From contig JAGTXX020000012.1 of the NCBI GenBank assembly GCA_019044685.2, forward strand, positions 1,240,001 to 1,304,000: 64,000 nucleotides of DNA. The letters are read 5' to 3'. Every line of letters starts with the position of its first letter. Positions within the stretch are counted from its first letter, which is position 1. The position numbers were made by a program, and so were the translations under genes. Positions 13,716 to 30,096 of the stretch are shown in pieces. This DNA is from Nannochloris sp. 'desiccata'. Taxonomy: Eukaryota > Chlorophyta > Trebouxiophyceae > Chlorellales > Chlorellaceae. The notes beneath the pieces were generated by a model that saw only the letters and a program-made list of their open reading frames with translations, searched no databases and was not told the origin of the DNA.

Positions 13716-16700
13716 TCACGGTGAAGCTACTTTTGCAGCATTAAAAGCAGTTGTCAGCCCCTCAGAAGTAGGCACCACCCCTACCCCCGGAAACACAGCA
13801 GGCAATCGCTGTTCTAAATCTTCCCATGCTTGTCCACACCGCACCCCCGTTCTCTCCCACACAACATCAATCAAATACGGGCTACTGGCGCCTAAATGTT
13901 TATGTAGCTTTTGTCGAGCAGTTGAAAAACGCTTATCAAGCCCAGAAGCAGCAGCGGAAACGGCTTGCCTCGCGTCCGCAGAAGTCCATTGCAAGCGAGC
14001 TCCAGCTTCAGAAGGGCTGATTCCCGAAGCACCGAACTCAGCGAGTTGCCCAGCTAAATGAACCAGCTTATCGAGTTTTAAAATCTCCAGCTGCTGCTCT
14101 ACACAGGCTGCTAATGCCGTGTTTCGCAAAGTTGCAGCTTCAGAGCATTTCTTTTGTAAAACTGGAGCTTGACTGAGTGGCAGACCTTGCAAACTAAGTC
14201 GTAAAAACGAGTAGTTTTCTAATTTTATACGTGGTGCGTGTTTCACATCGTGCGCAGCATGTGATTCAACAGAAGCGAGCATTGCATCAAGCACTTGGTT
14301 GTAAAGCGAATCAGCCAAAGCACGCACAGCAGCAGCAGGAGTAATAGCTACCATACTACCACCTCTGCTCAACGAAATATGCTGTGAACTACTAGATGAC
14401 TGATTGGAAGGGGCAGCAATACCAGCGACACTGGTAGAGTTTTGATCCATAGCTTCAAAAGGAGAGGGCTTCAGTGCAGCAGGAGCTGCTACAGGGTTTT
14501 CCACGCTTGCTAGCTGGGCATTGCTGTCTTTATTGCCTTTATTCTTCTGCGATAAAGTGGGTTCTTTATGGGGAGAAGGCGATCTACTCCTACTATTACT
14601 AGAAGAGAGATCTCTTTGGATCCAGTCTGTCACTATTTTCTCTATTCTACTCGCCACTGCTTCTAAATTAATAACAAAAGGCAGCACGTGAACACTACTA
14701 TAGCCACCCATGCCAGATTTTCCATCATAATGCTGGATAGCTGTCACACTATCTGCAACATACGCATCCCATATAGAACGTAGCTTGCGTTCGCATTGTT
14801 TAAGAATATCGCAGACAGCAGCAGAAGCAGAAACTCCAGCCAGTTTTGCCTGCCAGTGGAGGGTTGTAGCGATCATAGCTAAACAGGGAAGCACTTTAGG
14901 AGCACGAAGAGTATCTAAAAACGATAAAATCGCCTCTGCAATACCAGATAAAAGAGTAGATATAGCTTCATTTCGCGCAGTACTGGGATCACGCTGCTTT
15001 TCCTCTTGGCAAAGACAAACCAGCTCAAGGCATTTCTCAACTTCAGTTGTGAGCACTGGGAAGAACGTGCTGACCAACGATTCAAAACAATCTTCTAAAG
15101 GCCTGGCAAATGATACTACCTCTTTTCCATCCGCACCTCCTCCAGTTAAGCTAGAGCGCCTGCGGTGATGCCCTCCTCGACCACCTACTACTGCAGGCTC
15201 ACTTGCGGTTCTGGCTGGAGTGCTGCTGCAAATTCTTTCGAGCGTCTTGATCGAATCGGTACTTTTCAACCCAAAATCAGGCTCAACAGCTACTCCAGCA
15301 ACAGGATTGTTATTTTTTAAACTTCCTATACTGCCACTAGTCCCAGCCGCTGCTTGCTTTATCAAATCTTTAATCGCTCCACTAATTTCTTTCCTGAGCA
15401 AAGCATTCACCGACTTGCAATAACAACTCTGCAACGGCGCTGCAGCACCAGGACGCATCGCAACAACGACTTCCATTAAAGACTTCAATTCAGCAGCACG
15501 AGTGTGGAGTTGTGTATGCACCGGGATTCGAAGTCTGTCCCCAGCAGGCAAAGCAGCAACGAGTTTGACCAGTCCATCAGCTATATGAGAATACTCTCTT
15601 TTTAACAAATCAGTAGCACGATGTAAGAAATTCTTGGCCAAGTCTTGCATGTATCTCTTTCGCGTTAAGACGGCGCTCATCGACTGCAAGCGAGGAGAAA
15701 TAAAGAAAGGAAGCCTTGAAGCAGCTGCAGCGGAAGCAGACCTACTAGGATTATTAGATACACTCCCACTCATCACCATTGGATTACTAGACTTGCTCAA
15801 AAAAGAAGAAAAGGAAGGTGCATTATTGTTGAAAGCAGCAGCGGCAGAAGCAGTGGCAGCCGGGGTCTCAGCAGAGACAATTAATAGATGTTTATGTAAA
15901 TCCCACGCTGCAGAGATAGCTTGCTCTAAAGGAGTATAGGAGCCTTGTTTAATATGCTTCTCAACTGCACTACTCGTACTACTGGTACTATGGCTGCTAG
16001 GCAATACTTGTTGATCCCATTCTGGTGCTTGTAACGCGGCTTCAGTTCCCTGCTCCAGCACCAAAGCACTGGCCACACTTTCCAAAGTGGCCAGCAATCG
16101 TACATTACTTCTACTATGAGTCTCTAATTTATTATTCCAATCCTCTATTGCTGCCATATCTTCTCTCATATGCCGTAACTTCGCATCCAACATGCCGAGC
16201 GTCTCTTCTAAATCGTCCACAAACTCCAAAGTAGACCCAATCTCGTGTTCTATGCTTCCCGCAGCAGCTGCACTTTCGAGTAATTCGTGTACATTTGCAC
16301 CTTGTAAAGCTGCTAATTCAGCAGTTAAGCGGCTGCGAACGTCATTAAGTGAAGTACCTCCACCGGCAACAGCGTCAAGAAGGCTGGCGAGTTGGGTATC
16401 CTGCCGTGCAGACCATGCTGCGTTCATTTCAGCTTCAACTACAGACAAACTGGTACTATTACGCTGCTGCACTCCAGATACATTATTAAAACCATCACCA
16501 TCGTGTATACCACCAAATACAACTTTTCTAGTCGGTCTTCTATCGCCACCACCGACAACATCAGCACCAGGAGAGCCAGCAGCAGCACTATTAGTGGCGA
16601 TGGGCGTTGTGTTTGTATATGTACTTTCTAGCGTATTTCTCGGTGTAATAATCATCTGTGAACTAGAATCTTCACCTATGATGTTTCCCTTCCCGTATTC

Positions 16701-17390
16701 CTCGTCAGCATCGTCATATTCGTCATCTTCTAGTACATCTGCGTACATCCCCATCTCGGCTCTTTGCAAACCCACGACTAGCGGAGATCGTTCTTCATGG
16801 GATTTACAGAAACTGTATAGTAATCCTATAATTTCACCACGTGAAGCATCACTGGAGGCTTCAAAACTGAGTTTGGAGTCACCTCCAGTGAAAGCACGTT
16901 GCATTACTGTGATCTCTAGCAGGGGTTGAGTGGCGGTTGGTGGGCGGAATGCCTCAAGTTTTGTCAAGAGTCGTAATCGGAAGCTTTTACGGATATCATA
17001 ATGGCCCGGTTCGCCTTTACAGATGTGGAGGGTTGCTTTGAAGCCACGGGAACCGACACGGCGTTGGACAGTGACACAGAGAACACGGGGTTTGCCCGTT
17101 GGTTGAGGCGGTTTGATGGTTCGATTGCGGGATTGAGAACTAGAAGCACATTTTATTACCTATTTGGAGATAGAGAAAATCGGAAGAAAGGTGATAAGAT
17201 GGTGTGTGGTTACTGGAAGTTGCATTGTGTCTCTATAAGTGAAACAGAGGGGATCCTCTTTAGCCAAGCTCAGAACAGGACCAAGAGACGAGCGGCGAAA
17301 AATAAATATATTAGAACTTACTGGGAAAGCTGAGACCACTCTATGCTCTGTGTGGAGGAAAAGCCTCTCCATGTCACGAAGGACAGACAT
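13716..17390 (-). CDS. SEC3: Exocyst complex subunit SEC3
   Basis: SEC3 marks the plasma membrane for exocytic vesicle tethering. Exon 1 is 17322-17390 (23 codons) and exon 2 is 13716-17159. The 162-bp intron has donor GTAAGT and acceptor AATAG, giving 1,170 residues. Exon 2 opens with a Sec3-type PIP2-binding PH segment (GKPRVLCVTVQRRVG ... FRLRLLTKLEAF). Around residue 335 is the family's most conserved stretch, DDLEETLGMLDAKLRHMRED followed by WNNKLE, as in plant SEC3. The rest is helical with alanine- and serine-rich disordered inserts, which make it longer than Arabidopsis SEC3A (about 890 residues). The ATG at 17390 fits the splice phase. The gene is head-to-head with NAA38 across 178 bp. 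Confidence 0.88.
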
Positions 17391-18328: not shown

Positions 18329-19876
18329 CTAGACCAGCCCAGTCATCGCATGCTTTGGTGAAGAGCGTCGCTGTCCCCCATGCCTTCCTCTTTTCTGTTT
18401 CCTTGCAACCAAAGTCACAGCCACAAACACAGTCACTACAGCAACTACAATATATGCTACAAAACCTTTCTTACTAAATTTTAAGCCCGTACGCTCTTCA
18501 TTTTTTCCCGCATCACTATACGCCCCCCTCAGCCAATCGAATGCAGAAGCGTGACTACTATCCTTAGTGCTTCCAGCACCACTACTTGGCCCCAGAACCG
18601 CTCCCTCATCGCTTACCCCACCACCCTCAAACACGCTTCTTTCTACGTGTCCCCTTGCCTTTATAGTTCTATAATCATACCCCATAGCTTGCACTCGTGA
18701 AGGGTAGTATCCATACTCGGCAACTCTACGACTTTCTTCCTCTCGTTGATCAAAAGGAGCCGGAACGGAATATAAGTTATTTTTCCCTTTTGCTTCACCC
18801 GCTCCTTGACTGTGCCGCATGCACACATCATCAATCACTCCAATATGCCGTTCTGGGTACCGCAATAAAAACGGCCAACTGAAATCCAAACCCCAACCCG
18901 TATATGCATTCCATAGAGAAGGTTTGACAACTCCGTTGAAAAAATCCATCTCAAAGACTGGAGCCATAATCTCAACAAAGGTAACATAGCGAAGTACAGT
19001 TTCCTTTCTATTAGAATACAACAAATCCCAGTAGGTTGACCTGTATGGTGTACGGCACAGACTGGGCTGGCCGAGAACGAGCTTATACGCGTTAAAGACT
19101 TCAAATATACGATTAATGGAACATGTATCGAAGAACTCGACATCGTCATCTGCTACCATGACCGCTTTGTATTGCTTTGAAAACTCAGCCCACATGGTAG
19201 GTTCTTTGTCTATAAATCTGTTGAGCAAGCCCCATTTAGCACCTGCCCCTGGGATGACTGCCTTGCATAAAGGGCAAGAGAAGGCGGTGTCATCGGCGCC
19301 GTAGTAAAGAGCAACTATGTCATAGGTGGCGAGATTTGGGTGTGTCATCCATTTGGAAGCGTTAAAATCACTGCCAACAGGTGCAATAATTAAGAATTCA
19401 CGTGTTGGTGGGATCTCAGTCCCTGCTCGGGTTGTCGTCTGAGCTGTGATAGTGAGCTCAGGCGCAGCGGCAGAAGCTGCGGTGGCAGCTGCAAGAGCCG
19501 AGTCCATTTGCTGGCAATTGTCGGAGTTTTCTGCCCATTGCCAATTCTTCCATACATGTGCATCTTCAACTGATTCTTTCTCTTTAAAAAATGGTTTGAG
19601 ATGCATATTTGATGCCTTTCCATTAATTTTTGGCAACACAGGTGGCGCTGAGGCTAGTTGGTCATAAGGGGTTGCCTTGAAATACGCATGTAGCCATTCT
19701 GCCATCTTTGAATGAGCCTCATAACCAATAGGATCGATTTGCTCTGCCCAGGGGAAGGTGTTGGAGTTCTTATTACCTCCAAAAAGCTGTAAATTTCGGT
19801 GAGTTCCAATTTCGCTATTTTCCCTAGAAGCAGCCGTTAGTTCGCTACAAACGAGAAGCAACACTGGAAAAATCAT
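18329..19876 (-). CDS. DUF707 family type I membrane protein (putative glycosyltransferase-like)
   Basis: A single 515-residue frame starting with a signal peptide (MIFPVLLLVCSELTAAS). The lumenal domain runs from LIIAPVGSDFNASKW through MVADDDVEFFDTCSI, YTGWGLDFSWPFL and IDDVCMRHSQG, the conserved blocks of plant DUF707 proteins. The DDD motif and the GWGLDF block resemble metal and acceptor sites of GT-A glycosyltransferases, but no reaction is established. A hydrophobic segment near residue 475 (GFVAYIVVAVVTVFVAVTLV) followed by an Arg/Lys-rich tail suggests type I topology with a short cytosolic end. DUF707 proteins are more usually anchored N-terminally, so a cleaved signal plus a C-terminal anchor is a little unusual. 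Convergent with NAA38 (138-bp gap). Confidence 0.82.
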   Translation of the reverse strand: MIFPVLLLVCSELTAASRENSEIGTHRNLQLFGGNKNSNTFPWAEQIDPIGYEAHSKMAEWLHAYFKATPYDQLASAPPVLPKINGKASNMHLKPFFKEKESVEDAHVWKNWQWAENSDNCQQMDSALAAATAASAAAPELTITAQTTTRAGTEIPPTREFLIIAPVGSDFNASKWMTHPNLATYDIVALYYGADDTAFSCPLCKAVIPGAGAKWGLLNRFIDKEPTMWAEFSKQYKAVMVADDDVEFFDTCSINRIFEVFNAYKLVLGQPSLCRTPYRSTYWDLLYSNRKETVLRYVTFVEIMAPVFEMDFFNGVVKPSLWNAYTGWGLDFSWPFLLRYPERHIGVIDDVCMRHSQGAGEAKGKNNLYSVPAPFDQREEESRRVAEYGYYPSRVQAMGYDYRTIKARGHVERSVFEGGGVSDEGAVLGPSSGAGSTKDSSHASAFDWLRGAYSDAGKNEERTGLKFSKKGFVAYIVVAVVTVFVAVTLVARKQKRGRHGGQRRSSPKHAMTGLV

Positions 19877-20085
19877 CTTGGTTATAGCTAGAGTGATATT
19901 GCATTGACAAAATATGAAATGCCTGTGAAATCGCGGCCCCTAAGACACAAATAGAATGGGGGAGTCTCAGGGGACGACAACGAATCTGTCCGAGTCTCTT
20001 GGCATTCATTTATTGGACGAGAATTGCCTAAACGTGGCATAAATATTCAAAACAAACAATTAATTCTCTGCATGGAATTTTAACG
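19877..20085. promoter_or_regulatory. Divergent promoter region, DUF707 gene / Nudix gene
   Basis: 209 bp between head-to-head start codons. Assigned as a shared promoter by position only. No element is recognised. Confidence 0.35.
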
Positions 20086-20838
20086 ATGCGGATAGCATCC
20101 AAACTCTGGTGGCTTGGGCCCTATCGGTCCTTGCTCTACAACAGATGTCTGATCACCAATTTAAAAGACTTCAACGCATCCCCCTCTGCTCATCGAAGTT
20201 CACGCATTACAACGCGCGCTTTTGCCTCAGAAGTGAGCAAATTTTGCCGTAAATGTGGTTCAGCGATGGAATTAATAATCCCTGAGGGTGATTCTAGGAC
20301 TCGCTCCGTCTGCCAAAACGCTGATTGTCGCTACCACGATTATTTCAATCCAAAAATGGTCGTCGGGGCTATAATAGAACATGAAGACAAAATACTACTA
20401 TGTAGAAGAGGTATCATGCCTCAGCGGAACTTATGGACGATACCAGCAGGCTTCTTAGAAGTGGGGGAGAGCACGGCCGCCGGAGCGGCACGAGAAACTT
20501 TAGAAGAAGCAGGTGCTAATATTGAAATTATAGCTCCCTATGTGCATTACGATATAGTAGGAATTGGGCAAGCGTATTTATTATTTAGAGCAAAACTCTC
20601 ATCGCCTTTTACCTTTGCTGCGATGCCGCCGGAGTCTCTAGACGCAGCTTTGTTTGCTCCGGAAAATATCCCATTCGACGAGATTGCTTTCTCAAGCGTT
20701 TCAATTGCACTGAAAAGCTATTTAGAAGATAGAGAGAAGGGGGATTTCAAGTTTAGACATGGATCGATAATTAAAGAACCAGGTTCGGGGCCTAATGAAC
20801 CAGGAACTTTTAAACTGACTGAACTCTACACTGTGTAA
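20086..20838 (+). CDS. Nudix hydrolase with zinc ribbon (NUDX23-like)
   Basis: 250 residues in one exon. The first about 48 residues are basic and hydroxylated with few acids (a likely plastid or mitochondrial transit peptide). A four-cysteine ribbon follows (CRKCG ... CQNADC), then the Nudix box GFLEVGESTAAGAARETLEE with G-A after it, fitting GX5EX7REUXEEXGU. Zinc ribbon plus Nudix is the layout of Arabidopsis NUDX23, a plastid FAD pyrophosphatase, and of bacterial NADH pyrophosphatase. FAD or ADP-ribose hydrolysis is therefore the likely reaction. The stop codon lies only 7 bp before the target-site duplication of the transposon at 20855, so the gene's 3' untranslated region now runs into that element. 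Confidence 0.88.
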   Translation: MRIASKLWWLGPYRSLLYNRCLITNLKDFNASPSAHRSSRITTRAFASEVSKFCRKCGSAMELIIPEGDSRTRSVCQNADCRYHDYFNPKMVVGAIIEHEDKILLCRRGIMPQRNLWTIPAGFLEVGESTAAGAARETLEEAGANIEIIAPYVHYDIVGIGQAYLLFRAKLSSPFTFAAMPPESLDAALFAPENIPFDEIAFSSVSIALKSYLEDREKGDFKFRHGSIIKEPGSGPNEPGTFKLTELYTV

Positions 20839-20845
20839 ATAAATA

Positions 20846-20854
20846 TCAACAAAT
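20846..20854. repeat. Left target-site duplication (9 bp)
   Basis: TCAACAAAT, repeated exactly and in the same orientation at 25804-25812, directly against the two outer ends of the inverted repeats. A duplication of 8-11 bp, usually 9, is the mark of Mutator-like insertion. Confidence 0.95.
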
Positions 20855-20898
20855 GCATCACCGGTCTTTCCTTCTGGCCCGAAATAAGCTTAAGGGCC
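20855..20898 (+). repeat. Left terminal inverted repeat (44 bp)
   Basis: Begins GCATCACCGGTC. It matches the reverse complement of 25760-25803 at 43 of 44 positions; the only difference is A versus T at position 38. Beyond position 44 the two ends diverge. Confidence 0.95.
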
Positions 20899-20998
20899 CC
20901 TTTGGTAGCCTATACTTCATTTCAAGGTTAAATTTTCACATCATTGTTTTTGTAAGACACTAAACTACTTATTTAACCCCGCTGTTCGCCTTTTACTT

Positions 20999-22591
20999 AT
21001 GCCAGAAAGAATCTTTGGCATTACCATCAATGATCAAAGGCTTCTTGAGTCTTTGCAGTTGCTTCCGCATGATGCAAAACGCGAAGAAGAACTTAGACAG
21101 TTGAAACATGGGCCTAAGAGGCTGGAAATATTGCGCTCGGGTATAGAAGTTTCTGAATTGGCTAATGTGATCGGGGTAGCTCCTCAGGGGCTTACCCACG
21201 ATTTAATTTCCAGTAAATTCAATCCTAATTATTCTAAAACAGTTCCTTGTTATGGAGAGGAGCATGAACGCGACTCAAAAGAGGCTTTTCTGGAGTATGC
21301 CAAGGTATGATCACCTTCCCCGCTCCGTCTGATCTAATCAAACTTGCTGATACACTGCAATATCACACAGTACTCTCAATTTCCCCTGCTTCTCGTAGAA
21401 GACTAAACAAAGAGTAAAATTATATGCGCCTGGAATTTTTTCAATTAAAGATGCACCGTTTATTTATGCCGCCCCGCATTTTATTCAGACGGCACCGACC
21501 ACCACCTTGCTCTATGTTTTTAATGTGAACAAGGTTCCAGACTCGCTCCCTGCCCACGTGAAAGTTCAGGTAGTTAGGTTATATATCAACTAGCTGACCT
21601 GGATGTGCTTAGTACTCTTTGTCTGCCATATTTCATCGCTTTTGTGACGCTCTTGCCTTGTTTTGTTCCCACCCGAATGCAGGTGGTTGCAGCGTTGGCA
21701 CTTACGGAGGGTCCTGTTTTCTCCAAAACAGGGATGGAACCTACTGCACAGATTTATTTCTGCCCTTCTCAAGGTGATGGTGTCATTTTTGAAGTTAAAT
21801 ATGGAGATAACGAGCGCATGGAATGGAAAGAAAAGAGAGCAGCAGCGGTCCCGTATTTTCTGCAGAAAATGTTGCCCTACCTTGCAAGAAGCATCAATAT
21901 GGGTCAGCTGCCTCCTACTTCCCCAGCTATCTCATCACCACAACCTACACGTACTTATCCTTCTGCTATACAAGCTCCAGCATTAGATCAAACCCCATCT
22001 GTGGCCGTAAATAAAAAGGTGCGGGATCCTACAAAACCCAACCGAACCGGCATAGTACGAGAGATTTTCGATGCTGAGGATGAAGGAGACAAAAAGGCAG
22101 TAGTTGATTGGGATGGAGAACCAGTGAAACAGCGAAAAGCTAAATATCGCGTCAAAAACCTTGAAGTTATTCCAGTATTAGGCACTTATGAGCTGCCTGA
22201 TGCTGACGGGCAATACGTACAAGTTCTCAGCGGTGAGTATAAACAAGAAATTGCAATGGTGAGACGTTGGAATCCAGATTTTTCGTGGATTACACTAGAA
22301 ACACACTTAAATAGAAACGCTGACACCGATATAGAACCATTAAAGATAGCTACTAAGTCCTTAAAATTGGTTGGCGGTGGGAGAGACGTGACAATGCCTG
22401 CTGCAAAGCATGCTGTGGCATTTCCCCTAGATAGACTCGTACAAGACATGCCTGCGTACCAGAAACAAAGGCATGTACGATTGATTTCCAATATTAGTGC
22501 ACAAAAATTTGTAGAGGAGGTAAAAGAAAAAATAAAGGAAAGAAGAAAGGAGGAAGAAAAGCCTCAAAACAGACCGAAACGTGGCAAATAA
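20999..22591 (+). CDS. Transposon second protein: YqaJ-like nuclease fold plus KOW/SH3-like tail
   Basis: Exons 20999-21304, 21399-21569 and 21683-22591 join in phase 0 to give 461 residues. No close family is certain. Residues 40-100 (LRSGIEVSELANVIG, then CYGEEHERDSKEAFLEY) read like the start of YqaJ/lambda-exonuclease domains: a 'RxxRITAS' helix, then a G-x(3)-E-x(3)-A helix. Residues 114-130 (GIFSIKDAPFIYAAP) align with 'Glf...pflgaSPDG', but the Asp position is His. The expected E-x-K strand aligns with LLYVFNVNK and lacks Glu. PAHVKVQVVAALALTEGP, spanning the exon 2/3 junction, fits the 'Y-x-QVQ-x-L-x-TG' block, which supports the splice. So this is probably a catalytically altered member. 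Residues from about 275 (GIVREIFDAEDEGDKKAVVDW) look like a KOW/SH3-type barrel, followed by a basic tail. Convergent with the transposase across 96 bp. Confidence 0.55.
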
Positions 22592-22687
22592 ATTAATTAG
22601 TTCTGTTTGATTGCTTACATATGCTGTACGCAAAGTAAATACCATGTAAAAAATGTGATAATAGTGTGTAGCATTCTATAATAATTA

Positions 22688-25504
22688 TTAATATTTTTTG
22701 CGCTTGGTGCCTTTTGAACTACTAAACGGCCTTTTATTCTTTCTTGGACCGCCCCGAGCCTTGGCTGCCACAAATCCTTCTTCAATGCCTTGCTGCTGCT
22801 CTTGCTCCTCAGCAAACTGCTCCTCTGCACCCCTTAATGCATCCCGTCTACTGCTTCGACCTTCTACAACAACCTTGCCGGCTGCACTCCTATTGTTGAA
22901 GAGAGGTTTCGATTTTCTGTCGTCCTCGGAGCGATTAGTACTTCTAGTCTTAGTCCTTTGCTGATCTTTATCTTTCTTTCTAAATACACGCACGCTTCCT
23001 CTAGCCTCTTCTATCAAAGCTTGCATCTTTATATGCAGTAAATGACGAGCACCGGGGTCTAGATCCTTGGCCAAATCAGTTAAAGTACGAGCGTCAGCAG
23101 CTATAAAATCATTTTCCCTGGTAGACTTGGAGGTGCTATACACTTGATTTTTTGTAGTGTGCAGCAGCTCCAACTCACGTCCAGCACCTGCAGTAGGCTC
23201 TATCATTGGCGGAGGCATCAAGCGGCGTCTGCAATTCACTGGCAACATGACTTTATCGTGATCCAATTCTGCAATCAGCATTGGCGCCTCGGAAATAAGA
23301 ATTTCACGATCTTCAACGTCAAGAAGAGCAAACAAGTGAGGACACACGTTATGGGCACTGAACATATGGCATGAGCAGTATTTCTCAATAGTATTCACGT
23401 CGTATAGTCTTTTCTGCTGCTTTGCAAGCTGGGGATTTGAATACATGCACAGCGGCGCCACAGCAAAAATGCCATTTTTCTCGTCGATTGCTTCCACCAT
23501 AGTTTCTCTGCAAATCCTGATGATACCAGCCGCACTTTTAACTAATTCTAGTGTAGGACACCTTCCAGAATGCTTGCATGCAGCTTCAACATGCTTACAA
23601 GGCCATCTAACATTTGCCATGCAACAGCAGCTCCCGTCTGCCACGGAAATATTATAAGTTGAACCATCACTCTTTGTGCTTCGAGATACAGCCATTCCAG
23701 TGTCTCCAATACTACCAGGAATATCAGCCATGAATTGAATATATTCTTTCACAGGGTCAGAGAGCAATTTAATGTGATGTTCTAAAGTTGAATCAGCTCT
23801 TTCCGCTGAAATACCAACGCCACCACCTAAACGTTGAATTCTGGTAATAATAAAGTGGGTAACTTCATCTAGAAGCAGAAATATCTGTTGATCAAGCCGT
23901 GTAGCTATTCTCCCTTGAGAGCTTATATGCTTAATGCGTCTGAAATGAGCTTCAACAAGGTTGTTGGTGTCGCTCCGCAAGTCAGCAACATGGAGCCGAC
24001 CAAATGCAGCCCACCTAATAGCATCCTTTTTCCAATTCAAGTACTTGTGCAGCACCGGGTTTTTTAACTCTCCATTAATTTTAGATTCTCCTTTAACTTT
24101 CTCTGCAAGATACGCTTCAAACTGCAAACTCTTAGCTTCAAAGGCGGCGGGGTTTGTGATCTTTTGCAGCTCCGATAATTTATTTAGAATTTGTATACGT
24201 AATCCTTCATTAGACTTCCCATGCACACGGCTTTCAGTAGATCTAAGAAATCTCTCCCACTCTTGCATCATATGGAACTTGCAGAGCAAATAATTGGATC
24301 CAATTTGACCAATAGCGGCAATTTCAATGGTACTTTTATCAATCATAAAAGTTACATCAGCAGGATTTAGGTCAGCAGATTGCAATATAGCAGTCAAAAA
24401 CTCAGACCAAATAGCACCATCTTCGTTGCTACTAATGCAATACCCAGCAGGGAAGCCATGGCCAAACTCGTCTCGAACTACAAGAGCCAGCGTCGGGAAG
24501 CCATACTTGGAGAGACCAAAAACTGCATCCATAAAGCACAATTTACCACCAAACTGCTTGAGCATTGCTCTCTGTGCAGGAGTAGAAATAGCTAAACGTA
24601 AATGTTCCTTCACTTTTTCTTCTTCCTCGTCGTACACTTGAGGGTGATAGTACAAAACAACGTCTGAGCCAAGCAACTCCACAAGCTTCTCCACAGCCTT
24701 TACGTCGTTTTTATTAATACGTGTGCGGGTATACATACGCTTACGAATATTCTCAATATCACGAGCGGTGAGATTCATATTGGGATGCTTGAATATTACG
24801 TCATCTAATTGTTTAAAAATATCCATGTCTGATAAAACTTCCTTGTGGAGATGATCAACTATTTGCTGTGGAGTCAACCCAGTGCAAAGAAGTTTCTCAA
24901 TAACCTCAACTAAATCTGAGTCAATGGGTAAGTACCTCAGGTCATCAGCATCGCCTGGAGTGTGGCCCATGTGACCAAACTTCTCATAGATGTACACCGT
25001 CTCCGGCTCATCTACATAGACCACCCATTCTTCAGTATAGGGGCAAGCTGCATCTTTTTTAGAGGTTCTAGGCTTCTCAAATTCTGATTTAACCTTTGCT
25101 TGGGACGCTCGATCTGGGGCAGCCCTGTGGCATCTGCTAATGCGTTTATGCAAAATCTGTCGAGGATCCCCGGTGGCGGTGAAGGCGGACTCTTCGAAAG
25201 ATACCCGTTTGGGCTCTAGAGCTTGATTTGAAGCTATAGTAGTACCTCCCACAGCATTAATAACCTTGCTAGTACCCAAATTATTAGAAGAAGGGCCAGC
25301 AGAGGTTGTAGGTAGCTTCTCTAGTGATGGTGCCGTCTGGCCATCAAATGCAGCTGCTTGTTCACCACGCCACAAGTTTCTCACGGACCGCCCAATGCCT
25401 GCAATAAATCAACCATATTTACTTAAGATTTATCAATGATAATTCAGGCGAAATTAATCAGCGCAAGGCTAGTATTGCATACCTGCCAATGAGATTGAAG
25501 CCAT
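22688..25504 (-). CDS. MULE transposase (DDE plus SWIM zinc finger)
   Basis: Exon 1 is 25483-25504 (22 nt) and exon 2 is 22688-25398. The 84-bp intron has donor GTATGC and acceptor TTGCAG, giving 910 residues starting MASISLAGIGRS. The catalytic core shows the MULE order: first Asp in CFMDAVFGLSKYGFPTLALV, second Asp in FMIDKSTIE, then the C-x(2)-H signature LLCKFHMMQEWERFL, and the last acid probably in NNLVEAHFRRIKH. A SWIM finger follows (CCCMANVRWPCKHVEAA), typical of MULE/ZSWIM-type transposases. The N-terminal half has a charged DNA-binding-like region and the C-terminus is very basic (nuclear localisation). It should cut and paste the surrounding element by binding its 44-bp ends. Confidence 0.92.
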
Positions 25505-25759
25505 ATTAACCAGCGCAAATTAAAGATGATTAATGCTACTAAAGTTTGCGTATACTTATATGTATTCGTTGGGAAGTCCGCGATCTGATTGAATCAATCT
25601 TGCAGTTAAGATCTAAAGCATGCGAACAATTTAGTTGCCCATGAATCTAGCAGGGGGACATTACAACCGCTTTGCTGCAAGAAATATAATATCATTGATG
25701 ATACAATTGAGGTCTATGCAAATTATTTGTTAAAAAGATAGCGGAATAAGGCTGGAGGA

Positions 25760-25803
25760 GGCCCTAAAGCTTATTTCGGGCCAGAAGGAAAGACCGGTGA
25801 TGC
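25760..25803 (-). repeat. Right terminal inverted repeat (44 bp)
   Basis: Reverse complement begins GCATCACCGGTC at 25803. It pairs with 20855-20898 with one mismatch. Between this end and the transposase ATG lie about 255 bp that should contain the transposase promoter. Confidence 0.95.
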
Positions 25804-25812
25804 TCAACAAAT
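25804..25812. repeat. Right target-site duplication (9 bp)
   Basis: TCAACAAAT, an exact copy of 20846-20854, directly adjoining the last base of the right inverted repeat. Confidence 0.95.
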
Positions 25813-26277: not shown

Positions 26278-29200
26278 ATGGCTCGCAGCGAAAGTCCGGA
26301 CAACAGAAGGGACAGAGGGAGAGAGAGGAGACATAAATCAGATCGACGAAGCCATCGTGACAAGAAAGTAAGAACTAGAGATCAAAATTACATAGCACAG
26401 TTGTGTAGATACTTCGTTTCTATGAAATTTATATATTGCATTCTTTTCCTCCGCCATGAGCGTTCCATCACTCTAGAAACTAATCATAACAAAAAAATAA
26501 TTTCTTTCTATCTTTGCAGAGTTCACGTGATAAACGAAGTAGACGAGATCGAGGTCGTAGCAAAAGTCGCAGTAGATCGCGGTCTAGAAGTAGAGATCAT
26601 AGAAGACGGAGAGATTCCTCATCGCCACCCCCGCCTCCTTCTAGCAGTAACGAAATAGAGACAGGGCGCAAAGTCGCAGCTGCTGCACACACACCACATG
26701 GAGCTACCGAAAGTGAGAGGCAACTGGAAAGAGAACGAGAGCAAGCTGCGTTAGAAGAAGAAATGGAAAAGAGAAGAAGAAGAGTAGAAGCTTGGCAGGC
26801 ACAAAGAAGAAAATTGCAAGAAGAAGAAAAAGAAGAAGCGGCAAGGTTAGCAGCAGCAGCTGCTGCTGCTGAGAAAGAAAGTGCCGAAGCAGCAGCTGCC
26901 GCTACTACAGCTGGAAATGGAGAGGAGAATGCAAAAGGTGCTGCTGGCTGGAATTTGGAAGACGAAGAAGGGCTCTCAGACGGAGAGGAGGCTGCTGCAG
27001 CAGCAGCAGCAGAGGAAGACGCCACAGGGATGGTGGCAGCAGTTGCATCGGAGCAGGGAGATGGGGTATTAGTTAGTACACCACATGTTGCAATAGATGA
27101 CAAGGTATCAGTACCCTTGAAACCTGGGGAGATGCAGAATCAGATATATGATGCAGAGGAGGACGAAGATCCCCTAGATGCCCTCATGAGGAAAAACGCC
27201 GAGACGTTAGCATTACAAAACAAAGCTCAAACAGCAGCTGCAGCTCCTAATGGAGCTGATACTATGGAGTTGGTAGAAGATGATGAATTGGATCCTTTGG
27301 ATGCATTTATGGCTGCAGAAGTACTACCGGAAGTGCAGAAATTAACAACAAACCAAGAAGTTCAATCTCCTCCTGCTGCTATCGCTGGCGCTGGTGCTCA
27401 AGGAGGAGGTCGCCCCGCGTCAGCTGCAGGTGCTGCAGCTGCTAGTTCTAAACGTCGTCGCCGGATTACAAACAAAACTAACAACCGCTATGGAACTGCT
27501 GCCTCTTCTGAGGACGAATCGTATGGTGAAAGCGGAGGAGAAGGTGGTGGCGGTGCTGGCGGTGGTGATGAGGATGACGATGTCGAATGGGCTCGAAAAA
27601 TCCAGGCAGGGAAGCTCAGTAAAGGTGATAAATTGGGTATTACTGACCACACAAAGATGAATTACCCTCCTTTTCGCCGTAATTTTTATATAGAAGTCCC
27701 CGAACTAGCTAGAATGTCAAGTACTGAAGTCGATTCGTATCGCCGGTCTCTCGATGGAGTGAAAGTACGTGGCAAAGATGTACCCAAGCCAGTAAAGAAT
27801 TGGAATCAATGTGGTCTTAGTGCACGTGTATTAGAAACCATCCGTCGTGCTGGCTTTGATACACCACTACCTATTCAATCGCAGGCGCTACCAGTCATCA
27901 TGGGTGGCAGAGATTGTATAGGCATTGCCAAGACCGGTTCTGGTAAAACACTCGCATTTACACTCCCGTTAATTCGACATATCAAAGATCAGCCTCCTGT
28001 GGTCTCTGGGGATGGCCCTGTGGGTCTTATAATGGCACCCACACGCGAATTAGTGACGCAAATTGGAAAAGAGGTGAAACGATTTGCCCGTGCTGCTGGA
28101 TTAGAGTGCACTTGCGTGTATGGTGGATCTGGTGTTGCAAATCAGATCTCTGAACTCAAAAGAGGGACAGAAGTGGTGGTATGCACTCCAGGGAGGATGA
28201 TTGATATCCTCGCTACGGGGAATGGGAAGATCACAAATCTTCGCCGTGTGACGTATTTAGTGATGGATGAAGCCGATAGAATGTTTGATATGGGATTTGA
28301 ACCTCAAATTATGAGAATAGTGAACAATATCAGGCCAGATAGACAGACAGTCCTATTTTCAGCGACATTTCCTCGGTCGGTGGAGATGCTAGCAAGAAAA
28401 GTGCTTCAAAACCCTGTTGAGATCCAAGTAGGTGGTCGATCTGTCGTTAATTCAGATATTACACAGTTTGTAGAGATTCGACGTGATGAAGAACGATTTT
28501 TGAGATTATTAGAGCTGCTGGGGGAGTGGTATGAGCGGGGCAAAATTTTAATTTTTGTTTCCTCTCAAGATCGCTGCGATTCGTTATTCCGTGATTTGCT
28601 GCGTGCTGGATATCCATGTTTGAGTCTACATGGTGGTAAAGATCAATCTGATAGAGAATCGACCATTTCGGATTTCAAGTCTGCCGTATGTAATGTCCTT
28701 GTGGCAACTTCAGTTGCTGCTCGAGGCTTGGACGTAAAAGAGCTGGTTTTAGTTGTCAACTACGATTGTCCTAATCATCATGAAGATTACGTTCATCGTG
28801 TAGGTAGAACTGGCCGTGCTGGTGCAAAAGGCACTGCTGTTACGTTTATCTCTCCAGATGAAGAGCAATACGCCCCAGATCTGGTCAAAGCGTTGAAAGA
28901 AAGTAATGCCAATATACCTACTGACCTAGCTACTCTCGCTGAAGGTTTTGAAAAGAAACGAAAAGCGGGATTAGTCAAAGCCCACGCTTCGGGTTTTGGC
29001 GGTTCTGGCTTCAAATTCGATGAAGCTGAGGACGAGATGGTCAAAATGCTAAAGAAAGCAGCTGCTAAGGAGTTTGGAATTGTTGAAGAAAGTGATAGCG
29101 AAGGTGAAGAAGAAGCTGGTGGGGTCGATGTGGAACAAGGAGATGGCGGGGTGCGCGAAATGGGGGATAGGAAGTCTGCTGCTGCAGCAACAGCTTCTGC

Positions 29201-30096
29201 TGCGATGCACGCACAGCAGGCAGCAGAAGAAGAAGCTAGGTCTGTCGATATCTCAAGTATGTCAAAAGAAGCGCAAGCGAGGATTAAGGCTGCTCAAAGT
29301 ATTGCTGAGAAGCTTCTATCAGCTCCTATGCCACCACCTGCATCAGTGCCGCAAGTATTCAACGCCCCTCCAACTGTTCCTGTGGCTTCAATGCCGCTGG
29401 CAACAGCGGCAGTAACTAATCCGATGCTTGCGGCTGCACAAGCTGCAGCACAGCGTTTGGCAATGCAAATTCCAGGAGCAGCACCGCCACCAGCGCCATC
29501 AGCAGCAGGAGCAAGCCCGGTGGCGCCAAATATTGCTGCCGCCGCTGCCGCAGCATTGCAGGCAATGGGGGTGATGCCAGCTGCTGCCCTTGCAGGAGCC
29601 GCGGGAGCGCAGCCTCTACAGCCAGCATTGCCCGCTGTCAAGCATTATGAAGCTGAATTGGAGATTAATGATTTCCCACAACAAGCTCGTTGGAAGGTAA
29701 GAAAGAATTCTAGAGATAAAGAAAGAAAGAAAGGCAGCGTTTATGTTATTTAGGTGGTTTCTTTTTCAGTCTTTCTTTAGATATCCTTGACTTTATAATG
29801 ATCAGCAAACATAATGAACATATGCCGTTTTTTCCTATCTGTTGCAGATCACCCATCGTGAGACTATTAGAGAAATTAACGAACAGCTAGGTGCCGCTAT
29901 CGTAGTCAAAGGTCGATACTACAAGCCTGGTGAGAAAATTCCAGAAGGAGAAAGAAAGCTCTATTTACACATTACAGCAGTGGATCCCGATATTGTACGC
30001 CGTGCAAAAGGAGATATAAAGCGGATTTTAGAAGAGAGCACTGAAAAAGCTATGAGAAGAGGTGAAGGGTTGGCAGGGCGGTATTCGATTGTTTAG
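26278..30096 (+). CDS. PRP5: DEAD-box pre-mRNA splicing helicase PRP5/DDX46
   Basis: ATP-dependent RNA helicase that remodels U2 snRNP at branch-point recognition. Exons 26278-26367, 26520-29696 and 29848-30096 are all phase 0 and give 1,171 residues (Arabidopsis RH42 is about 1,170). An N-terminal RS domain (RSKSRSRSR) and a charged coiled region come first. Two DPLDA motifs (DPLDALM, DPLDAFM) correspond to the SF3B1-contact motif. Helicase motifs follow: AKTGSGKT, PTRELVTQI, VMDEADRMFD, SAT, ARGLDVKELVLVVNYD and HRVGRTGRAG. The conserved C-terminus begins YEAELEINDFPQQARWK, continues across the last intron into ITHRETIREI, and then GERKLYLHI. An alanine/proline-rich insert lies near residue 980. 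Confidence 0.96.

Follow-up and report, generated by a model that had tools for sequence, protein, structure and literature searches.

The window analysed here, a 64,000-nucleotide stretch of the genome of Nannochloris sp. 'desiccata' (Chlorellaceae, Trebouxiophyceae), contains at positions 20855-25803 a complete two-gene Mutator-like element (MULE) of 4949 bp, recognised by its inverted termini, its 9-bp target duplication, its MULE transposase and the copies with the same ends found elsewhere in the genome. The terminal inverted repeats (TIRs) are 44 bp long (left, 20855-20898, plus strand; right, 25760-25803, minus strand) and 98% complementary to each other. They are flanked by a perfect 9-bp target-site duplication, within the 8-11 bp range of MULEs, which reads TCAACAAAT on the plus strand on both sides (left, 20846-20854; right, 25804-25812). 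The two genes converge, the second gene, hereafter ORF2 (open reading frame 2), being on the plus strand and the transposase gene on the minus strand.

Exon 2 of the transposase gene (22688-25398, minus strand) carries the MULE domain, detected with Pfam (PF10551, 29.5 bits for a cut-off of 27.6, residues 292-382), and SWIM-like C-x-C..C-x-H motifs read by eye, the SWIM match (E=0.068) being below its Pfam cut-off. Exon 1 (25483-25504, minus strand, 22 nt, MASISLA) belongs to a splice model placed by eye and open to the stop; if joined to exon 2 across an 84-bp intron, it gives a transposase of 910 amino acids. Candidate DDE residues, placed by eye from motif positions, are D294, D357 and E486 (ORF numbering). 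No Harbinger family was present among the six Pfam rows obtained for the transposase at E up to 1.

ORF2 starts with an ATG at 20999, its stop ends at 22591, and its three exons encode a 461-amino acid product, called P0001. This protein is identical over all 461 residues to an NCBI hypothetical protein of Nannochloris sp. 'desiccata', meaning that our hand splicing agrees with the annotation. A preliminary description of this locus had placed a spliced 461-residue product at the same coordinates, and the gene lies inside an element with TIRs and a target duplication. Exon 1 (20999-21304, plus strand, as are the other two) encodes the N-terminus, S52 and the helix glutamate E90 (both placed with the alignment called A5), and R46, a possible phosphate-pocket arginine according to a pairwise alignment with a one-residue gap. 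Exon 2 (21399-21569) encodes the degenerate catalytic region, with H129 in the slot of the catalytic Asp, Y141 and F143 in the E-x-K slot, and Q159. Exon 3 (21683-22591) encodes the end of the YqaJ-like domain, a Tudor/KOW-like SH3 barrel predicted at residues ~262-326, a weak second KOW-like segment (residues ~335-364) and a basic C-terminus.

The genome searched consists of 18 contigs, labelled C1, C2 and so on (21.55 Mb), and two MULE families are distinguished in it. Family A comprises the window element and its kin; a family-A relative of P0001, called P0002 and known from Joint Genome Institute (JGI) data, has 63% identity to it across 62% of the length. Family B is a second MULE family, the ORF2 product of which is called P0003. 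In a whole-element search, the window element was the one full-length copy of family A, besides shorter copies and fragments. Two of these are 99.9-100% identical to it, a copy on C11 with its middle deleted and a fold-back copy on C6 in which the left end is present twice, in inverted orientation, which indicates that family A moved recently. The fold-back copy (C6:454061-455878) is built of two left-end segments, the first of 957 bp and the second, inverted, of 871 bp, and its 9-bp target duplications differ at one base. The family-A copy on C10 is 84-87% identical, deleted in its middle and frame-broken. Full-length copies of family B lie on C10 and C9; the copies on C6, C15 and C1 have little of the transposase left and retain ORF2 over its length, unbroken on C6 only. 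Ten insertion sites were inspected for target duplications (5 of family A, 4 of family B leaving out the C1 copy, and 1 of a related element on C2): 7 had perfect 9-bp duplications, 2 had one mismatch, and 1 (C15) had no visible duplication.

Family B has the layout of the window element, with ORF2 rightward and the transposase leftward, and the transposases of the two families are 37-45% identical over aligned segments. P0001 and P0003 share 20% identity over ~360 columns (E=5e-9, single comparison), and the first ORF2 intron is found at the same aligned place and in the same phase, after K102 in P0001 and after K100 in family B. The terminal repeats of both families (20855-20880 in the window for family A) start with GCA and have a CTGGCCC block at positions 20-26, which hints further at a common origin.

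The preliminary description had related ORF2 to the YqaJ/lambda-exonuclease domain, and our comparisons bear this out. P0003 matched PHROG 434, a family of RecE-like recombination exonucleases, with E=2.3e-13 over residues 28-221. P0004, a 274-amino acid metagenomic protein obtained in a deep protein search with residues 1-240 of P0003, matched the same family with E=2.8e-6, and it has the catalytic D and the E-x-K in the same columns. Matches to the Pfam YqaJ model (PF09588) were obtained for P0003 (17.5 bits, E=0.0053) and P0004 (14.7 bits), both short of the cut-off of 22. Profiles were compared by hhalign with an exonuclease set of 11 intact proteins, namely the YqaJ domain of the host and ten phage proteins taken from 46 phage matches. 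P0003 alone reached 94.5%, P0004 alone 37.7%, and a four-sequence profile led by P0001 96.2% (one-to-one E=2.8e-9, score 72.5); in the control made with 100 shuffles of P0003, the top score was 26.4. A tblastn search of phages with P0003 (E<=10) yielded 11 records: 6 from Arthrobacter phages with RecE-like exonucleases (best E=0.04; one of them names its product endonuclease), 2 from a single Vibrio phage that has an exonuclease, and 3 from Lactococcus and Microcystis phages, which match another part of P0003. When P0003 was compared by BLASTP to the best of the phage records, E was 9e-9 (single comparison).

The four conserved YqaJ blocks named in the preliminary description are all found in P0001, and the likeness goes beyond that of shuffled sequences. 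Over the YqaJ region, P0001 and P0003 aligned with a score of 91 (500 shuffles: mean 32.2, standard deviation (SD) 5.2, maximum 71), with four gaps of 1-2 residues, none of which falls within residues 103-173. P0004 scored 146 with P0001 (500 shuffles: mean 35.8, SD 5.2, maximum 65) and 444 with P0003 (best of 100 shuffles, 57). A structure model of P0001 computed with exonuclease rows in its alignment (predicted local distance difference test, pLDDT, 59.1) had LHK-Exo and lambda exonuclease as its best matches. We conclude that a YqaJ/lambda-exonuclease ancestry of P0001 is supported by the match of P0003 to PHROG 434, the gap-free D and E-x-K of P0004 and this relatives-aided model. On the strength of the sequence comparisons, the first ~230 residues of P0001 can be taken to descend from a RecE/YqaJ-type nuclease of the lambda-exonuclease family.

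Three deep protein searches returned only P0001 to P0004; such searches need shared 5-residue words, so that distant kin may escape them, and in the first two scoring was limited to the 7993 candidates with the most words in common. No relative of the transposase, of P0003, of P0004 or of A6 was confirmed in scans of IMG/VR. In PDB, neither P0003 nor the A2 profile found an exonuclease by sequence search, and A2 gave a single row, an SPT5 KOW chain at E=1.4. The host has a YqaJ gene (C9:1822779-1823288, minus strand; Pfam E=8.2e-18, LHK-Exo match E=2.1e-5), which is the only Pfam YqaJ match in the genome and has intact SPDG and EIK motifs. This gene is unsupported as a source of ORF2, the best pairwise E value being 0.24, with family-B ORF2.

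The alignments of P0004 with P0003 and with P0001 are gap-free across the active-site region, where P0004 reads SLDY and VEIK, P0003 SLNY and VQMK, and P0001 APHF and LYVF. The slot of the catalytic Asp (D119 in lambda exonuclease) is thus occupied by D in P0004, N128 in family B and H129 in P0001, and the E-x-K slot by E/K, Q140/K142 and Y141/F143, respectively. The catalytic Glu of the lambda E-x-K is Glu129. The preliminary description had rightly read APHF in place of SPDG, but its placement of NVNK in the E-x-K slot has to be corrected: NVNK starts three residues downstream of the E position, and the E-x-K slot itself is made of Y141-V-F143, so that the lysine is lost too. As for its claim that the catalytic residues are gone, it holds for D, E and K but not for the helix glutamate, as P0001 retains E90 at the place of lambda Glu85, together with the QVQ-type glutamine Q159. 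S52, E90, G114, A126 and Q159 of P0001 fall in nearly invariant columns of alignment A5, which takes in 15 viral RecE-like proteins, from 15 of the 29 distinct IMG/VR loci obtained. The phosphate-pocket tryptophan and arginine are both present in P0003 (W39 and R43, identified by eye). N and Q occupy the D and E slots in all five family-B copies. The diverged, frame-broken family-A copy on C10 reads AAPHF and LYVFNV, and having the same letters as P0001 it makes a sequencing error at this site unlikely. Together, P0004 (D/E/K), family B (N/Q/K) and family A (H/Y/F) suggest a series of stepwise loss.

In the account of lambda exonuclease given in PMC7496540, Glu85, Asp119 and Lys131 belong to the active site, and Trp24 and Arg28 to the pocket for the 5'-phosphate; changes in either left activity abolished or barely detectable. 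The K131A mutant served there to trap a DNA complex, and mutants of the channel were those most affected in DNA binding (PMC7496540). By analogy, P0001 should not cut DNA but may bind it.

Each known system to which ORF2 can be compared resembles it in part. Maize MuDR is an autonomous MULE like the window element, and pairs its transposase gene (mudrA) with a further gene, mudrB, which is reported to be needed for Mu integration and described in the same sources as novel or of unknown function (PMC8224964, PMC6446971). TIRs are ~200 bp long in MuDR, against 44 bp here, and mudrB is set beside ORF2 on the basis of its description. In elements of the ISL2EU type (PHIS/Harbinger-like), the second gene encodes a YqaJ exonuclease domain (PMC4482050, PMC9179366), as the preliminary description had stated, and in this respect they are like the window element; according to PMC4482050, what these extra ORFs do is not yet known. 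The transposase there is Harbinger-like, with helix-turn-helix (HTH)/THAP domains, whereas it is a MULE transposase here. Accessory genes also occur in other MULEs, vanB and vanC (the latter anti-silencing) in VANDAL21/Hiun and mutB (DNA-binding) in Mutyl, but the account in PMC6446971 describes no nuclease ancestry for their products. With PHROG 434 proteins, LHK-Exo and lambda exonuclease, P0001 shares profile homology (via P0003 and P0004), block order, the fold suggested by its relatives-aided model and the positions of E90 and Q159, and it differs from them by having H129/Y141/F143 for the catalytic D/E/K. Compared to RecE-like/YqaJ exonucleases, it adds the C-terminal Tudor/KOW-like barrel and sits in a eukaryotic transposon. 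Two-gene MULEs are already known. The preliminary description regarded a YqaJ protein in a MULE as new, and we recognised no report of such a gene joined to a MULE in the open-access papers searched, Repbase not being among the sources; as far as these papers tell, a YqaJ-type second gene in a MULE is apparently new.

We are highly confident that ORF2 is an inactive YqaJ-type descendant residing in a MULE. The best overall explanation of the locus, which in our estimate has an even chance of being right, is that ORF2 is the helper gene of an autonomous MULE and encodes a non-cutting, DNA-binding partner of the transposase. Presumably no longer able to cut DNA, the protein would use its inherited surface for duplex ends and backbone to hold either the ends of the transposon or those that excision leaves behind, and it may do so as a ring-shaped oligomer like lambda exonuclease. 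Its Tudor/KOW-like part may contact chromatin, RNA or the target site, and the protein would assist or protect the integration step of the transposase, much as insertion in maize requires mudrB. For the end-holding function itself we lean slightly to the side of doubt, and we view as rather unlikely the wider proposition that a green-algal MULE lineage turned a phage-type RecE exonuclease into a non-cutting DNA-end clamp for integration. What gives ORF2 its interest is that the action of the MuDR second gene is unexplained, and that here is a MULE second gene with a readable ancestry, whose loss of catalytic residues can be traced across relatives. The question of MULE helpers becomes concrete, namely DNA-end binding without cutting. 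With ISL2EU and MULE, YqaJ-type partners are now seen next to transposases of two unrelated types, an indication that transposon ends repeatedly call for such a protein. If the proposition of a DNA-end clamp is true, the three stages represented by the relatives (intact, neutralised, overwritten) would provide a first mechanistic model for MULE helpers such as mudrB.

Several observations weigh against ORF2 being such a nuclease-derived helper. Taken alone, P0001 gave no YqaJ match in Pfam, PHROG or hhalign: the Pfam rows were limited to KOW (E=0.09) and a permease model (E=0.1), both taken as chance, PHROG returned one row at E=0.11, and hhalign gave 0.13% with the exonuclease set (0.1-0.2% for P0001 and P0002 alone). 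Its link to nucleases runs through P0003 and P0004, and the profile relationship anticipated in the preliminary description holds for the four-sequence profile, but not for P0001 by itself. P0004 is known from a contig of only 1607 bp; any element around it would tell whether some helpers are active while others are dead. In the phosphate pocket, the equivalent of Trp24 is a leucine in P0001, and R46, which meets R43 of P0003 only with a one-residue gap, is one column off in alignment A5, its placement being uncertain. A first model of P0001, built from three relatives without exonuclease rows, was too poor for the YqaJ part (pLDDT 40.8), and the second depends on the hypothesis, since exonuclease relatives are in its alignment; its Foldseek matches in PDB had a large root-mean-square deviation, with none at E<=0.001. 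Finally, family-B ORF2 has a stop near the C-terminus on C15 and a one-base gap in exon 1 on C1, and its recent copies have 1-2 synonymous and 1-4 nonsynonymous substitutions each (exon 2 only for the C1 copy), with no sign of purifying selection, such recent copies being uninformative in this respect. The family-A copy on C10, being frame-broken, was excluded from this dN/dS count.

That no purifying selection shows in the recent copies is among the points in favour of ORF2 being a mere passenger, captured by the element, playing no part in transposition and decaying ever since. MULEs often capture genes, as reported in PMC6446971, the active site is lost, and one of the three transposase-deleted family-B copies, that on C6, has an unbroken ORF2. 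Two families with transposases as distant as given above nevertheless share the gene, its place and orientation in the element and its first intron, and the gene is also found in the family-A relative P0002 and in P0004, so that we hold a passenger to be improbable. Another reading is that ORF2 is an anti-silencing or chromatin factor like VANC of the Arabidopsis VANDAL elements, which would bind the DNA of its own element and/or histones via the Tudor/KOW-like part and keep the element expressed, the dead nuclease domain being only a DNA-binding scaffold; we find this unlikely, while taking it seriously.

Lambda exonuclease being a homotrimer that can also assemble in vitro into hybrid trimers containing inactive subunits (PMC7496540), P0001 might also act as a pseudo-subunit that joins an active YqaJ nuclease in mixed rings and modulates end resection at excision sites. 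One YqaJ gene with intact motifs was indeed detected in the genome, but its domain has no meaningful pairwise similarity to family-B ORF2 (the E=0.24 quoted above), making shared interfaces doubtful, and the ORF2 proteins of both families are altered at the catalytic site; we judge this quite improbable. Still less do we believe that ORF2 remains a nuclease with a rearranged active site (involving for instance E90 and H129) or has another activity: a histidine in place of D could in theory coordinate a metal, and E90 and Q159 are kept, but D, E and K are all gone in family A, and the five family-B copies have the neutral N and Q. That ORF2 is unrelated to YqaJ and its block order a coincidence, as the lack of a direct profile match for P0001 and the low-confidence model without exonuclease rows would allow, is hardly credible in view of the shuffle tests, of the PHROG 434 matches of P0003 and P0004, and of the catalytic D and E-x-K that P0004 preserves in the corresponding columns.

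Around the element, the window contains host genes for a Sec3 exocyst subunit (13716-17159), a DUF707 protein (18329-19939), a Zn-ribbon Nudix hydrolase (20032-20838), the open frame of which stops just short of the element, and a DEAD-box helicase (26490-29753). Elsewhere in the genome, a 59-bp micro-element (C6:1367674-1367732) is hardly more than two family-A terminal repeats, and is flanked by a perfect 9-bp duplication, GGCCAGGTG; it is a very small transposed MULE derivative. The related element on C2 (C2:612237-615720) has family-B termini, 745-nt inverted repeats (98%) and a 9-bp duplication without mismatch. Its transposase fragment shares 37% identity with the window transposase, and the element is perhaps a third MULE type. 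A 51-bp piece of ORF2 exon 1 (C9:466367-466417, 90% identical) lies away from the other copies, as a relic or a captured fragment, and a decayed relic similar to the ORF2 C-terminus and to the transposase (C1:316784-317280) perhaps derives from an older family-A-like element.
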